This document shows, piece after piece, positions 1-5,801 of a stretch of 64,000 nucleotides of DNA. This DNA is from an uncultured Bacteroidales bacterium (lineage in GTDB: Bacteria > Bacteroidota > Bacteroidia > Bacteroidales > UBA932). Within the stretch, counting starts at the first letter, position 1. Every line of letters starts with the position of its first letter. The stretch covers positions 54,403 to 118,402 of the forward strand of contig ONOH01000001.1 of the NCBI GenBank assembly GCA_900319405.1, read 5' to 3'. A model generated the notes under the pieces. It had not been told where the DNA came from, did no database searches, and saw nothing but the letters and a program-made list of their open reading frames with translations. The position numbers and the translations under genes were made by a program.

Positions 1-324
1 CAGCATTTCTCCCATTTTTGCGAAGCTGACAATGCTCCCGGGAATAAGGCGGGCGGGATCCGGAATGCCGTCCAGGAATTGGTGGGAAGGGGCGTCGGCA
101 TAGCGCAGGTTCTCGATCTGATAGACCCAGAGCGCCTGCGAGATATCATGGACGATGGAGGTTTTGTCAAAGTCGAAAACGGCATACCCTCCGCTTCCGG
201 AAGCCAGAAGCGAATCGAGCGACTCCCGTACATACGGATCCCAGGAACCGGGCCCCAGCAACTGCGGTTTCTTTCCGCAGGCCAGGGCCAGGACCATACA
301 TAAACTCAAGTATATTCTTCTCAT
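1..324 (-). CDS. HAD-superfamily phosphatase-like lipoprotein (partial, C-terminus beyond window)
   Basis: Reading leftward from the ATG at 324, the frame stays open to the edge, so about 108 N-terminal residues are visible. It starts with a short signal peptide and a lipobox (LALAC, Cys around residue 15), predicting an exported lipoprotein. At about residue 50 it has VFDFDKTS, the D-x-D-x-[T/S] motif of the haloacid dehalogenase fold, as in phosphoserine or phosphorylcholine phosphatase-like enzymes. Its ATG overlaps the pyrB stop codon (ATGA, 321-324), so it is probably translated with the pyrimidine operon. A role in hydrolysing phosphorylated substrates, perhaps nucleotides, in the periplasm is inference. 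The substrate cannot be read from this fragment. Confidence 0.75.
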
Positions 325-1400
325 CTGACTTTGCTTTCACAGTACCAGCACCGCATAATGCCGTTTTCGGCCAGGCGGAACTGCGGCTGGTGCGACTCGG
401 TGTTGCAGATGCACTTGCTGTTGGTGCAGTGCAGGGTGGGGTCGATGATGGGCTCGTCCGGCTCCGGCATCGCGTGGGCCGGGTCCTTGCGCCAGTCCAT
501 CAGGCTCACGATAAGGGCCATGCGGACAAATTTTCCGTTCTCCACCTGCCGGAAGTAAGCGGCACGGGGGTCGTCGTCCACCTCGGTCAGAATTTCGTTC
601 ACGCGCGGAAGCGGGTGCAGCACCACCATCTTCTCCTTGGCCAGGGCCATACGGCGGGCATCCAGCACGAAGCTGTCCTTCACGCGCTCGAACTCTTCCT
701 CGTCCAGGAAGCGCTCCTTCTGAACGCGGGTCATATACAGCACGTCCAGTTCCGGAATGGCCTCGTCCAGGGACTCGGTCTCGCGGTAGGTCACGCCCAT
801 CTTGTCGCAGACATCTTCCTTGATGTAGTCCGGCAGGCGCAGCTCGTGCGGGGCGATGAGCACCACCTTGATGCCGTTGTAGCGGGACAGGGCCTTGATG
901 AGCGAGTGCACGGTGCGGCCGAAACGGAGGTCACCGCAGAAGCCGATGGTGATGTCGTCGATATGTCCCAGTTCGCGCTTGATGCTCAGCAGGTCGGTGA
1001 GTGTCTGGGTAGGATGGCTGTGGGAGCCGTCTCCGGCGTTGATGATGGGCACGTTGGATACCTGGGAGGCCACCAGGGGAGCACCTTCGATGGGATGGCG
1101 CATGGCGATGATGTCGGCGAAACAGCCCACCACGCGGACGGTGTCCTGCACGGTTTCACCCTTGCTCACGGAAGAGGCCTGGGGGTTGGAGAAACCCAGG
1201 ACCTGGCCACCCAGTTCCATCATGGCGGCGGTAAAGCTCAGGCGGGTACGGGTGCTGGGCTCGTAGAAGAGCGTGGCCAGCTTCTTGTGGGCCATACTGC
1301 CCTGATAGCGCTTGCGGTGGGCGATGATGTCTTCGGCCAGGGCTACAATCTGGTCGATTTCCTCCTTGCTGAGGTCGGTGGGATCGATGAGGTGTTTCAT
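321..1400 (-). CDS. pyrB: Aspartate carbamoyltransferase with a C-terminal PyrI-like zinc domain
   Basis: Catalyses carbamoyl phosphate plus aspartate to carbamoyl aspartate, the committed step of UMP synthesis. The catalytic chain shows STRTR (residues 49-53), the lysine loop SVSKGET (about 77-83), HPTQ (129-132) and HPLPR near residue 273, as in normal PyrB. The protein is 359 residues, about 50 longer than a usual catalytic chain. The extension has Cys325-x4-Cys330 and Cys351-x2-Cys354 in a context (CTNSKC, CWYC) closely like the zinc domain of the regulatory chain PyrI. The nucleotide-binding allosteric domain of PyrI is not present. The start overlaps the pyrE stop by ATGA, and the stop overlaps the next gene the same way, so this is a tight operon. 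Confidence 0.95.
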
Positions 1401-2005
1401 AAATTATTACGGAAATTGAGTATTTGTTGTTTCTGAAGGGGAGTGATGTATTCTTCCTGGACGGCTACGTCCACCAGCGCATCCAGGTTGCTCAGGGAAT
1501 GGTTCACCACCCGGGCGGCGTTCAGGCGCTCGATGCCCTTGCGAAGCCCGTAGGTGAAGATGCTGACGATGCCCAGCACCTGGGCGCCCGCTTCCCGAAG
1601 GGCCTCCACCACGTCCAGTACGCTGCCGCCCGTGGATAGCAGGTCTTCCACTACCACGACCCTGGCGCCCGGCTCCAGCCGGCCCTCGATGCGGTTGGCG
1701 CGGCCGTGGCTCTTGGCCTCCGAGCGGACATAGCCCATCGGCAGGTTCAGGAGGGTGGCCGTGATGGCGGCGTGGGCGATGCCCGCCGTGGAGGTGCCCA
1801 TCAGCACTTCGCAGCCGGGGAAGTGTTCCTTCACCAGCGCAGCTAATCCCCGCTCGATTTTCTCCCGCACGGCCGGGACCGAAAGCGTGAGGCGGTTGTC
1901 ACAGTAAATGGGGCTCTGGATGCCGCTGGCCCAGGTAAAAGGCTCATCGGGCCGCAGGAACACGGCGCCGATCGAAAGGAGTTCTCTGGCAATCTGTTTT
2001 TCCAT
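1397..2005 (-). CDS. pyrE: Orotate phosphoribosyltransferase
   Basis: Converts orotate and PRPP to orotidine monophosphate in the cytoplasm, the fifth step of de novo pyrimidine synthesis. The 202-residue length is normal. The PRPP-binding signature [13 protein letters not shown] lies at about residues 116-128, and the flexible catalytic loop is around RSEAKSHGR (94-102). It starts 3 nt after the pyrF stop and overlaps pyrB by 4 nt (ATGA), so translational coupling within one transcript is likely. No unusual residues were seen. Confidence 0.95.
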
Positions 2006-2008
2006 ATC

Positions 2009-2713
2009 TCAGGCTTGTAAAAAATCTGTCAAACAACGCCGGTAGGCGGCGACGGGGTCCGGGGCGGCCGTCACGGGCCTTCCGACGACAATATAATCCG
2101 AGCCGATTTCCCGCGCGCGGGCGGGGGTGGTGATGCGCACCTGGTCGTCGGCCGCCGCATCGGCAAAACGGATGCCCGGGGTGACGGTAAGAAAGTCCGC
2201 TCCGCAGGCCTTCTTGACCAGGGCCGCCTCCAGCGGCGAGCAGACAACGCCGTCCAGCCCTGCCTCGCGCGCGTTCTGCGCGTACCTCACGATGGTTTCG
2301 TTGATGCCGGCCCCGATCAGCAGTTCCCGCTGCATCCGCTCCTCGCTGGTGGAGGTGAGCTGCGTGACGGCAATCAGAAGGGGTCGCGTGCCGTCTTCCC
2401 GGCTCAGTCCCTCCAGGGCGGCGCGCATCATCTCCACGGTCCCGGCGGCGTGCACATTGACAATGTCCACCTCCAGGGCCGACAGCACACGCATCGCCTT
2501 TTTCACGGTGTTGGGAATGTCGTGGAGCTTGAGATCCAGGAACACGCGGTGTCCGCGCCGCTTGAGCTCGCGCACCATTTCGGGCCCCTCGGCATAGAAG
2601 AGCTCCATCCCAATCTTGACAAAGGGCGCGGCCTCTCCCCGGAAGGCGTCCAGGAAGTCCAGCGTTTCTTTCCGGCCTGCAAAGTCGCAGGCGATGATTA
2701 CATCTTTCGCCAT
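2009..2713 (-). CDS. pyrF: Orotidine 5'-phosphate decarboxylase
   Basis: Decarboxylates OMP to UMP, the last step of the pathway. The 234-residue length fits the short class I enzymes. The catalytic motif [10 protein letters not shown] (residues 60-69) contains the Asp-Lys-Asp residues of the active site, and the N-terminal strand VIIACDF carries the substrate-binding Asp. The C-terminal phosphate loop region contains IVVGRPVT. It lies between pyrD (3 nt upstream) and pyrE (3 nt downstream) in the same operon. Confidence 0.94.
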
Positions 2714-2716
2714 CGT

Positions 2717-3628
2717 TTATACCACTCCGATAATATCTTGTAAACACTTGATTCCCAGCCGGTCCATCAGCTCCGGAAGGGCCTCCAACATTTCCGGGCA
2801 GGCCATCGGGTTCCGAAGGTTTTCGGCTCCCACCTGCACGGCCGTGGCTCCGGCCATCATCATCTCAATCACATCCTCGGCCCGCTGTACGCCGCCGCAG
2901 CCCATCACGGGAATCCGGCAAGCGTGGGCCACCTGATACACCATCCTGAGGGCGATGGGGAAGATGGCCGCGCCGGAAAAGCCGCCCATCTTGTTGGCAA
3001 TCACCGGCTGGCGGCGGGCAATGTCAATGCGCATCCCCAGGAAGGTGTTCACCAGGGTGATGCCGTCGGCCCCGGCATCTTCACAGGCTTTTGCGATGGA
3101 AACGATGTCCGTGACATTGGGGCTCAGCTTGATGAAAACGGGTTTTTCCGTCACCTCTTTCACGGCCCGGGTCACCGCCGCGGCCAGCTTCGGCTCTGTT
3201 CCGAAGGCCATTCCGCCGCCGTGGACGTTGGGGCAGGAGATGTTTACTTCCAGGAGGTCGATATCCGGGCAGGCATCGGCCCGCCCGCAGTTGAAGGCGT
3301 ATTCCTCCACGGAATAGCCGCTGATGTTGGCGATGATTACGCCCCGGTAAATCCGGCGCAGGGCGGGGGCCTTTTCGCTCACCAGCACCTCGATGCCGGG
3401 GTTCTGCAGCCCCACGGAATTGATCATCCCGGCGGTGCATTCGGCAATGCGCGGGGTGGGGTTGCCAAAGCGGGCCTCGCGTGTGGTCCCCTTCAGGGAA
3501 ATGCCCCCCAGGAGGTTCAGGTCCAAGGTATCCGCCAGCTCCAGGCCGAAGCCGAAGCTGCCGCTGGCGGGGACCAGCGGGTTCTGCATCGGAATGCCGC
3601 AGAGGTTCACAGCCAGCCGGTTCACCAT
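2717..3628 (-). CDS. pyrD: Dihydroorotate dehydrogenase, class 1B catalytic subunit
   Basis: Oxidises dihydroorotate to orotate with FMN. Class 1B enzymes pass electrons through PyrK to NAD. Seen in the 303-residue protein are the substrate/FMN region NSVGLQNPG (about 70-78), NISCPN with the catalytic base Cys132, and a C-terminal GCGGV FMN phosphate-binding motif. A catalytic Cys rather than Ser, together with pyrK next door, assigns it to class 1B. It overlaps the end of pyrK by 7 nt (3622-3628), consistent with stoichiometric production of the two subunits. Confidence 0.95.
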   Translation of the reverse strand: MVNRLAVNLCGIPMQNPLVPASGSFGFGLELADTLDLNLLGGISLKGTTREARFGNPTPRIAECTAGMINSVGLQNPGIEVLVSEKAPALRRIYRGVIIANISGYSVEEYAFNCGRADACPDIDLLEVNISCPNVHGGGMAFGTEPKLAAAVTRAVKEVTEKPVFIKLSPNVTDIVSIAKACEDAGADGITLVNTFLGMRIDIARRQPVIANKMGGFSGAAIFPIALRMVYQVAHACRIPVMGCGGVQRAEDVIEMMMAGATAVQVGAENLRNPMACPEMLEALPELMDRLGIKCLQDIIGVV

Positions 3629-4359
3629 AGCACCACCTCCTTGTCAAAGACGGGGCCGTCGGCACAGACGCGCCGGGGGCCTTCCAGGGTTTGTACGCTG
3701 CAGCCGTAGCAGAAGCCGGCGCCGCAGCCCATTCTTTCTTCCAGGCTCACCTGGCCGGGAATATCCAGCGCGGCGCACAGGGCTTTCATCATCGGCAGCG
3801 GGCCGCAGCTGTAGAAAAAGTCTGCCTGCAGTTTTTCGGCGGCGATGGCGTCGGTCACAAAGCCCTTTGTTCCCACGGAACCGTCCAGGGTGGCCACATG
3901 CACCGGAACGCCCAGGGCGCGGAACTCCTCCGCGAGGCAAATCTCATCGGCCCGGTTGAAGCCCAGCACTGCCGTGGGATGTTTTCCGGCCTGCAGCAGT
4001 TCCCTGGCCAGCAGGTACAGGGGAGCCGCCCCCAGTCCGCCGCCCACCAGAAGGGCCTTCTCCCGGCACTTTTCGGGCCCAAATCCGGAGCCCAGGGGCA
4101 GAAGCAGCTCCAGCGCTGTCCCCGGGGTCATGGCGGCCATCTCGCGGGTGCCTTCACCCACAATCTTATAATAGAGGACCAGGCCGCGCGGAAGTACGTC
4201 GCTCACGGAGATGGGGCGCCGCAGATATCGGCCCGGGAGGGCGATATCGACAAACTGCCCGCTTCGCACCGTCACGGAAGCATCCGTTTCCAGCACCAGG
4301 CGAAAGGTGTCGTGCGCGACGGGGCTGTTGCTCCCGATATGGAAGATTTTCTTGAGCAT
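3622..4359 (-). CDS. pyrK: Dihydroorotate dehydrogenase electron transfer subunit
   Basis: FAD and [2Fe-2S] subunit that transfers electrons from PyrD to NAD. The 245-residue protein has the FAD-binding RYLRRPISV segment near residue 45, an NAD-binding GGGLGAAPLY segment near residue 110, and the C-terminal iron-sulfur ligands Cys212, Cys217, Cys220 and Cys232. The start is placed at ATG 4359. An in-frame TTG six bases earlier is possible but less likely. The start lies only 4 nt after the U-tract of a terminator hairpin (4364-4392), so expression probably depends on antitermination (see the leader peptide entry). It is the first gene of the pyrK-D-F-E-B operon. Confidence 0.94.
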   Translation of the reverse strand: MLKKIFHIGSNSPVAHDTFRLVLETDASVTVRSGQFVDIALPGRYLRRPISVSDVLPRGLVLYYKIVGEGTREMAAMTPGTALELLLPLGSGFGPEKCREKALLVGGGLGAAPLYLLARELLQAGKHPTAVLGFNRADEICLAEEFRALGVPVHVATLDGSVGTKGFVTDAIAAEKLQADFFYSCGPLPMMKALCAALDIPGQVSLEERMGCGAGFCYGCSVQTLEGPRRVCADGPVFDKEVVLW

Positions 4360-4363
4360 AGAC

Positions 4364-4392
4364 AAAAAAAAGACAGTTGGTTAAACTGTCTT
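4364..4392 (-). terminator. Intrinsic terminator / attenuator hairpin in front of pyrK
   Basis: On the minus strand a perfect 9-bp stem AAGACAGTT / AACTGTCTT with a 5-nt loop (4370-4392) is followed directly by a run of T (4364-4369) and then, 4 nt on, by the pyrK ATG. A terminator this close to the start of the first pyr gene fits attenuation better than ordinary termination after pyrC. Confidence 0.8.
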
Positions 4393-4398
4393 GGAAAA

Positions 4399-4485
4399 TC
4401 ATTTCATATAAGGGAAAAAGCAGGGGCAGGAGGCCGTCCGGAGGCCGCCGAGGCGGGAATGGGTGATGTGGTGATTCCTGACCAT
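4399..4485 (-). CDS. Putative 28-residue leader peptide of the pyrK operon (PyrL-like)
   Basis: A small frame, ATG 4485 to TGA 4399, encodes MVRNHHITHSRLGG followed by LRTASCPCFFPYMK. Its stop lies 6 nt before the terminator stem, so a ribosome reaching the end would cover the 5' arm of the hairpin. The codons for the Phe-Phe-Pro part form the U-rich tract CTTTTTCCCTTAT, like the pausing tract in the enterobacterial pyrBI leader, whose peptide PyrL also contains FFFP. By analogy, low UTP would slow RNA polymerase in the U-rich tract, let the ribosome catch up and prevent termination. The layout is seen directly. The mechanism is inferred and no expression data are available. Confidence 0.6.
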   Translation of the reverse strand: MVRNHHITHSRLGGLRTASCPCFFPYMK

Positions 4486-4500
4486 TGCGCTTTTCGCCTG

Positions 4501-4508
4501 CAAAGATA
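4501..4508 (-). promoter_or_regulatory. Bacteroidota -7 box for the pyrK leader transcript
   Basis: TATCTTTG on the minus strand matches TAnnTTTG. It lies just after the pyrC stop and about 15 nt before the leader ATG at 4485, so the transcript would begin near 4494-4496. No clear -33 TTTG was found, so support rests on the -7 box and its position. Confidence 0.55.
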
Positions 4509-4520
4509 GGAAAGATTCTC

Positions 4521-5801
4521 CTAATAAAAAACACCCTTGTCCAAAAAGCAGACATTTCCTTCTTTGAGGGTGAGAACAATGCGGCTTCGGAGACTTTCCC
4601 CGGCAAATGGAGTGGCCCTTCCCAGGGAAAGGAATTCCTCCGGATTCACTGTCCATAGGGCATCGGGGTCTATTACGCAGAGGTCGGCGGCTGTGCCGAT
4701 GTCCAGCCCGCCCGCCAGGCGGAAGGCCCGGCGCGGCCCCTCCGTGAGGGCTTCCACAATGCGCTCCAGGGAAACGATGCCGGGAAGCACAAGCCGGGTG
4801 TAGAGCAGCGGGAAGGCGGTTTCCAGCCCCACGATGCCCATTGCACTGCCCCTGAGGCCCCGGGCCTTTTCCTCGGCGCTGTGGGGTGCGTGGTCGGTGG
4901 CGATGGCATCGATGGTGCCGTCCTTCAGGCCTTCGACCAGGGCCTCCCGGTCCCGGTCCCGGCGGAGGGGCGGGTTCATCTTGAACCGGCCGTCCTCCTG
5001 GAGGTCATCCTCGCAGAGGGTGAGGTAGTGGGGGGCCGTCTCGCAGCTGACGCGGACGCCCCGGGCTTTGGCCTCACGGATGAGTTCCACGCTCTGCTCA
5101 CAGGAAATGTGGCACACATGGTAACGGCAGCCGGTTTCCGCGGCCAGCTGCAGGTCCCTTCGGATCGGGCCCCATTCACTTTCGGCGCAGATGCCCTTGT
5201 GGCCGTGGGCGGCGGCGTAGCGGCCCTCGTGGATGTAGCCCCCGTGCAGGAGGCTGTTGTCCTCGCAGTGCGCGGCGATGATCACGTCCTGGCGCGCCGC
5301 CTCCTCCATGGCCGCCCGCATCACCGCCTCGCTCTGCACGCCGCTCCCGTCGTCGGAGAAAGCCACGCATCGGCCTTTCAGGGCGGCAAAGTCCACCAGT
5401 TCCTCTCCCTTGCGGCCGCGGGTGATGGCGGCATAGGGCAAAACCCGGATACAGGCATCCCGGTCTATGATTTCCTGTTCCAGGGCCAGGGTTTCGGGGC
5501 TGTCGGGAACAGGGTCCAGGTTGGGCATGGCGCAGACGGTGGTGTAGCCGCCGCGGGCGGCCGCCAGCGAGCCGGTCCGGATGGTTTCCTTGTAGCTTTG
5601 GCCGGGTTCCCTCAGGTGAACGTGAATGTCCTTGAAGCCTTCGCAGACAAGTTTTCCCGCGCAGGGAATCACTTCCGTTCCGGGGGTGGGTTCCAGATGG
5701 GGCGCCACGGCGGCAATGCGGCCTTCGCGGACCAGGATATCGGCCCGGCGCTGTCCTTCGGCCCGGACAAGGATGCCGCCTTTGAGTAACAAATCCTTCA
5801 T
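4521..5801 (-). CDS. pyrC: Dihydroorotase, class I
   Basis: Cyclises carbamoyl aspartate to dihydroorotate, a zinc amidohydrolase reaction. The 426-residue chain starts MKDLLLKGG, typical of the amidohydrolase N-terminal strand. Metal-binding HVHLREPG is at residues 60-67, with later His ligands in the AAHCEDN and CHIS segments. KMNPPLR and ATDHAPHS are present near the C-terminal third, as in class I enzymes. The frame is open far upstream on this strand, but only this start gives family-like sequence, and the upstream part is antisense to aspS and murB. A TATCTTTG box lies only 4 nt before the ATG, suggesting a leaderless mRNA. It is separated from the pyrK operon by the attenuator. Confidence 0.95.
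   Translation of the reverse strand: MKDLLLKGGILVRAEGQRRADILVREGRIAAVAPHLEPTPGTEVIPCAGKLVCEGFKDIHVHLREPGQSYKETIRTGSLAAARGGYTTVCAMPNLDPVPDSPETLALEQEIIDRDACIRVLPYAAITRGRKGEELVDFAALKGRCVAFSDDGSGVQSEAVMRAAMEEAARQDVIIAAHCEDNSLLHGGYIHEGRYAAAHGHKGICAESEWGPIRRDLQLAAETGCRYHVCHISCEQSVELIREAKARGVRVSCETAPHYLTLCEDDLQEDGRFKMNPPLRRDRDREALVEGLKDGTIDAIATDHAPHSAEEKARGLRGSAMGIVGLETAFPLLYTRLVLPGIVSLERIVEALTEGPRRAFRLAGGLDIGTAADLCVIDPDALWTVNPEEFLSLGRATPFAGESLRSRIVLTLKEGNVCFLDKGVFY

Follow-up and report, generated by a model that had tools for sequence, protein, structure and literature searches.

The pyrimidine operon pyrK-D-F-E-B of an uncultured Bacteroidales bacterium is headed by what is probably a transcription attenuator of the pyrBI/pyrE kind, based on UTP-dependent pausing of RNA polymerase. 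The unit lies on the minus strand of the window (the whole stretch of DNA analysed, 64,000 nucleotides) and consists of a promoter box, a short leader frame, a U-rich tract and an intrinsic terminator placed immediately before pyrK. The same anatomy recurs at the heads of pyr operons in relatives, with its spacing, its U-richness and its potential for pairing. The parts in the window are the following.

4508-4501, minus strand: promoter box TATCTTTG (TAnnTTTG, Bacteroidota-type), with a predicted transcript start near 4496
4399-4485, minus strand: putative leader ORF of 28 codons plus TGA; frame and stop position are kept in relatives, the peptide is not
4485-4483, minus strand: leader ATG, 15 nt after the box
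4475-4489, minus strand: candidate start-codon lock, 5' strand, covering the leader ATG
4419-4432, minus strand: candidate start-codon lock, 3' strand, touching the U-tract
4401-4399, minus strand: leader stop TGA, 6 nt ahead of the terminator stem
4393-4419, minus strand: U-rich tract, the proposed UTP-dependent pause region, between lock and terminator
4392-4370, minus strand: terminator hairpin AAGACAGTT-TAACC-AACTGTCTT, a perfect 9-bp stem with a 5-nt loop and compensatory changes in relatives
4371-4364, minus strand: terminator T-run of eight T, two of them also in the stem
3622-4359, minus strand: pyrK; its four best NCBIfam models are all "dihydroorotate dehydrogenase electron transfer subunit", each below cut-off
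2717-3628, minus strand: pyrD; PyrD above NCBIfam cut-off
2009-2713, minus strand: pyrF; PyrF above NCBIfam cut-off
1397-2005, minus strand: pyrE; PyrE above NCBIfam cut-off
321-1400, minus strand: pyrB; PyrB above NCBIfam cut-off

The earlier note had described the box, the 28-codon leader, the stop 6 nt before the stem, the 9-bp stem, the T-run and the spacing to pyrK, and all of these agree with the sequence to the base. Its reading of the genes as a pyrK-D-F-E-B operon is borne out by the models for D, F, E and B, and those for PyrK point the same way at scores below cut-off. GTCT sits between the T-run and the pyrK ATG (4359), placing the pyrK start 4 nt past the T-run. The gene upstream of the leader passes the dihydroorotase (pyrC) model and ends at 4521. 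According to PMC9723704, the position of the promoter box is -12 to -5.

The window PyrB (321-1400, minus strand) is a protein of 359 aa with four cysteines in its last ~55 residues, an end which we take to resemble the zinc part of PyrI, and which is perhaps a fused zinc domain. Among 138 genomes these C-terminal residues align only with those of G511, the other proteins stopping near residue 300-347. The best relatives of PyrK include many records titled Clostridia. PyrC of the window's own type is patchy in the genus (37/121 genomes; genus g1, L091-L170) and was found in 3/149 genomes of the order, the own genome being counted in both. The pyr operon may have been transferred between phyla.

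Taken by itself, the window is only partly distinguishable from chance. The 9-bp hairpin is recovered by a terminator scan over 3.5 kb, which returns 2 sites against a mean of 4.0 in shuffles and hence no excess; 64% of dinucleotide shuffles keep the leader frame open, and the start-codon pairing does not reach significance (p 0.45). The last 30 nt before the stem contain 15 U (shuffle p 0.0025), and the combination of box, hairpin, T-run and gene occurs once in the 64 kb. Because the window alone is weak against chance, the evidential weight is carried by the relatives.

A close sequence family was collected by searching 300 genus genomes with a two-row leader profile and then 400 with a covariance model. 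It comprises 10 instances in the 400 genus genomes, all heading pyr genes: pyrK in six, pyrC in three, and in one (G249) an extra ORF followed by pyrK. This ORF (265 codons, L034 665-1462, minus strand) lies between attenuator and pyrK and by eye resembles an outer-membrane protein. The covariance model matched 34 genus genomes, 24 of them more weakly than the close family; ten of the weaker loci were read, and none had leader, terminator and pyr gene together. Over 295 order genomes it found the own genome only.

In the close family, the TAnnTTTG box stands 14-17 nt before the leader start in 10/10 members, and the start codon is ATG in nine and TTG in one. Seven of the stops fall 6-8 nt before the stem and the other three within the hairpin or beyond it. 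All 10 have the terminator core GACAG/CTGTC, an invariance which is partly by construction because the pattern used to locate the terminator demanded GACAG...CTGTC; three flanking pairs are changed on both sides. The U-tract is weaker in two members, G091 (39%) and G104 (36%). Pairwise differences amount to 0.26, 0.40 and 0.26 at the three codon positions, and therefore coding selection on the leader peptide is not apparent. The open frame also says little within the close family, since the other two frames are likewise mostly stop-free.

These observations bear on the possibility that the leader senses an amino acid through His, Cys or Phe codons, as in the his, trp and phe operons. The window peptide indeed contains HH, CPC and FF, and PMC9723704 reports hints that amino-acid operons of a flavobacterium are attenuated through leader peptides. 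Such residues are however not kept even in the close family, where CPC is replaced by FRC, FRH, SPR, FPR or HLC and no regulatory codons are conserved, and the diverged leaders described below differ in composition, so that an amino-acid sensor is scarcely credible. The Phe-Phe-Pro to which the earlier note had drawn attention proved incidental: it is lost in relatives, and U-richness is kept instead. A Cys-Pro-Cys sensing peptide, an idea derived from two homologues, was dropped on the same loss of CPC and FFP.

Beyond the close family, the regions upstream of pyrC were examined in 38 of the 39 genomes with own-type PyrC (G433 was left out). A script found box, leader frame and terminator followed by pyrC in 18 of the 38; most of these leaders are unalignable to the close family and alike in anatomy. 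G067 was dropped, as its hairpin falls inside the pyrC frame. The remaining 19 regions lack the unit, and four of these genomes (G000, G008, G089, G104) carry it at pyrK. The anatomy is also present in L094 (RGIG1112), in L099 (titled Paludibacteraceae) and at the pyrK of G012, which were added after the terminator scan or by reading. G511 belongs to a different family within the order. As anatomy, leader frame, U-tract and stem are thus kept both in the 10 close relatives, where the terminator shows compensatory changes, and in the diverged leaders at pyr operon heads, which is the conservation that the earlier note had expected of a real attenuator.

It might be supposed that an RNA which binds a metabolite or a protein, i.e. 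a riboswitch or a PyrR-like target, controls the terminator, and that the ORF is incidental. In the close family the RNA fold is conserved better than the peptide, and weak pairing of the leader with the terminator 3' arm is seen there, as this reading would have it. By reading, the diverged leaders share no fold or sequence core besides the terminator, and across such unlike sequences a binding motif would have no need of an open frame or of a stop codon placed at the stem. No Rfam family matched any leader searched at gathering score: the window stretch gave 4 matches no better than chance (E 2.9-9.6), of which one overlaps the leader but on the opposite strand, and 18 leader loci gave 2, neither on a leader. 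PyrR was found in 0/8 genomes (completeness >=90% and contamination <=5% in 4 of them) and in 7/14 control genomes. A binding RNA is on this evidence unlikely.

Among the features of pyrBI/pyrE-type attenuation, an intrinsic terminator that separates the leader from the first pyr gene is found in the window, in 10/10 close relatives and in the 18 pyrC regions above, and a frame that would bring the ribosome to the stem in 28 of 29 leaders. In these 28, the frame read from the first start after the box closes no more than 9 nt short of the stem, within it or beyond it. The stop lies 2-9 nt before the stem in 14, at its edge in seven, inside or past it in seven, and 15 nt before it in one (L099). 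For statistics, the leaders were grouped by eye into 17 clusters, selected for box and terminator, with G135, G088, G093 and nine close-family rows collapsed; the clusters are not fully independent because by eye their terminators share a core. In 16/17 clusters the frame stays open until 12 nt or less from the stem, where dinucleotide shuffles would give 6.3 such clusters (P about 4e-7).

The third feature, a U-rich tract before the terminator, is equally widespread: at least 13 U occur in the 30 nt before the stem in 15/17 clusters versus 1/40 controls, which are other hairpin-T sites and not proven terminators. Concentration of U in the last 30 nt is below 0.05 in 10/17 clusters (Fisher p about 2e-15); G027 and G135 have none.

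An unregulated terminator, e.g. one ending upstream transcripts with the leader ORF as a by-product, would agree with the end of the window pyrC at 4521, just upstream, and the hairpin would therefore terminate pyrC transcripts too. Against it, a promoter box precedes the leader in all 29 (its presence being a condition for entering that count), the relatives have other genes or none upstream of the leader, and stop position and U-richness exceed shuffles. The explanation appears very improbable. Somewhat less so, and still quite improbable, is a translation-coupled attenuator whose signal is not UTP, as with another nucleotide or general translation capacity. The coupling anatomy is indeed better supported than the U-tract step, and G027 and G135 fit this reading; the U-richness of 15 of the 17 clusters speaks against it, as does the restriction of the unit to pyr genes in the DNA sampled, although this sampling was centred on pyr genes. 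Box, hairpin and gene coincide in six places in ~502 kb (213 boxes), all six before pyr genes by reading, in DNA that is mostly pyr-centred.

The preferred reading therefore remains the attenuator with UTP-dependent pausing. The frame reaching the stem, the U-tract, and the lack of a significant 5'-arm partner, of Rfam matches at cut-off and of PyrR together point to occlusion by the ribosome: no leader pairs significantly with its terminator 5' arm (p 0.19-1.00). The 3' arm gives a suggestive result (p 0.05-0.07) in 5/10 close relatives. A leader GGACAG as competitor of the terminator was considered and set aside because it is absent from the own and the pyrC leaders; within the close family the 3'-arm result leaves it a candidate.

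We infer promoter use, translation, pausing, a UTP signal, termination and read-through in the following order. RNA polymerase would start at the TAnnTTTG box and make a leader with a short ORF. At low UTP it would hesitate in the U-rich tract, and the ribosome on the leader would catch up and halt with its front on the terminator 5' arm; the hairpin would then not form, and pyrK-D-F-E-B would be transcribed. At plentiful UTP the polymerase would clear the U-tract at once and the terminator would form. Translation of the leader is suggested by the open frame and by the start codon (ATG, changed to TTG once). Ribosome-polymerase coupling in Bacteroidota is assumed. In support, PMC4824070 shows for E. 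coli that, when translation was coupled, termination fell from ~90% to <10% once a stop lay 5 instead of 28 bp ahead of a terminator; PMC5021804 states that pyrBI requires tight coupling across PyrL.

Pairing of the leader start codons with a strand beside the U-tract further suggests a kinetic start-codon lock, which is a new proposal of the present analysis. Once out of the polymerase, this strand would pair with the start codon and shut off translation, so that ribosome loading would race the closing of the lock: a fast polymerase would free the locking strand ahead of ribosome binding, and a slow one would not. The start region pairs with the downstream leader above shuffles over 15 testable clusters (Fisher p 1.4e-8), with later in-frame starts allowed and with G137 and G027 left out as too short. 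Without G036, G030, G097 and G141, Fisher p is 3e-6 over 11 clusters. Singly, eight of the 15 fall below 0.05 (G119, G141, G036, G003, G030, G118, G001, G511) and seven are not significant (G139, G028, G097, G012, RGIG1112, L099 and the window). The 3' lock strand ends 0-26 nt ahead of the stem.

For the leader RNA of the close family, folding predicts a long stem that takes in the start codon. Covariation of this stem exceeds 500/500 shuffles in a model-fitted alignment of 10 close relatives (A8); an earlier alignment of 8 rows, made without such fitting, shows it only weakly, with 2 double-changed pairs against a shuffle mean of 1.9. The G091 leader folds no better than shuffles.

The similarity with E. 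coli pyrBI, whose PyrL leader is also a short ORF with a U-rich tract and an intrinsic terminator just before a pyr gene, extends to the lack of an antiterminator in the same test and to a predicted pairing between the start region and the side of the U-tract. In K-12 pyrL (L209) the latter pairing has a shuffle p of 0.075 and is a lead only. Unlike pyrBI, the genes downstream here are pyrK or pyrC and the promoter is of another type. The PyrL frame moreover runs through the hairpin to 47 nt past the stem start (d = -47), whereas here the stop is usually before or at the stem. In E. coli rph-pyrE, translation ends shortly before the attenuator stem, as it does here; the frame there is a full gene, and here it is a leader of 9 to 42 codons. 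The pyrBI geometry claimed in the earlier note thus holds for the parts of the attenuator and fails for the placement of the stop, which is nearer to rph-pyrE, as the PyrL frame crosses the hairpin. PyrR-binding attenuators are another terminator-based control of pyr operons, and differ in that here PyrR was not found in any of the eight genomes and no PyrR RNA matched.

The attenuator would, judging from its anatomy, work like those of E. coli pyrBI and pyrE, yet no PyrL homologue is detected by profile: with NCBIfam NF007587, none of the 5 Bacteroidales leaders tested, out of 29, gives a match at E <=1, and E. coli PyrL scores 120 bits. If correct, Bacteroidota would have a pyr attenuator that senses UTP through coupled translation and is unrelated to PyrL in sequence, an apparent convergence. 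Bacteroidota mostly lack Shine-Dalgarno starts, and the mechanism predicts working ribosome-polymerase coupling in this phylum. In an open-access search on coupling and attenuation in Bacteroidetes, titles and the beginnings of abstracts did not report working coupling. The earlier note knew of no described pyrL system in the phylum, and the open-access literature, subscription papers aside, likewise yielded no pyr leader of Bacteroidota. Leader attenuation is not itself new there, because PMC9723704 reports clues to it in a flavobacterium; those amino-acid leaders share the phylum, a leader peptide and attenuation, and differ from the present ones, which head pyr operons, have a U-tract and lack conserved codons.

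A broader scenario, which is advanced tentatively and falls short of being probable, is that Bacteroidales evolved fast-evolving, UTP-sensing pyr attenuators independently of enterobacteria, with the U-tract serving both as pause signal and as neighbour of the lock strand, so that UTP would set the race between loading and locking; E. coli pyrBI may hide the same lock, where it would be testable too. The pyrL pause mapped in PMC9291695 is, according to that study, unlikely to depend on a hairpin. The leaders diverge beyond alignment and keep their anatomy, and therefore offer natural replicates for dissecting the kinetic switch.

Several related arrangements were met at other sites. Upstream of pyrB, a survey of 60 of 137 matching non-own genomes gave box and hairpin in 13, with the first ATG frame open to the stem in 8 of 13 and 7-14 U of 30 (no shuffle test); the picture is mixed and was left out of the evidence. 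In RGIG10143 (L098), a pyrD-like gene is preceded by a box at 5552 and a 13-codon frame with its stop 1 nt before a hairpin with T-run; this leader lies within the pyr operon and has just 6/30 U. Upstream of the pyrK leader in G104 there is a DUF3800-VIII RNA (L070 1332-1398, minus strand), which scores 51.5 bits with Rfam RF03075 against a cut-off of 40.2. By reading, seven genus genomes, namely G067, G108, G111, G133, G035, G018 and G131 (L192, L194, L195, L196, L197, L199, L206), have a strong hairpin within the first pyrC codons and no separate leader, possibly another form of control.
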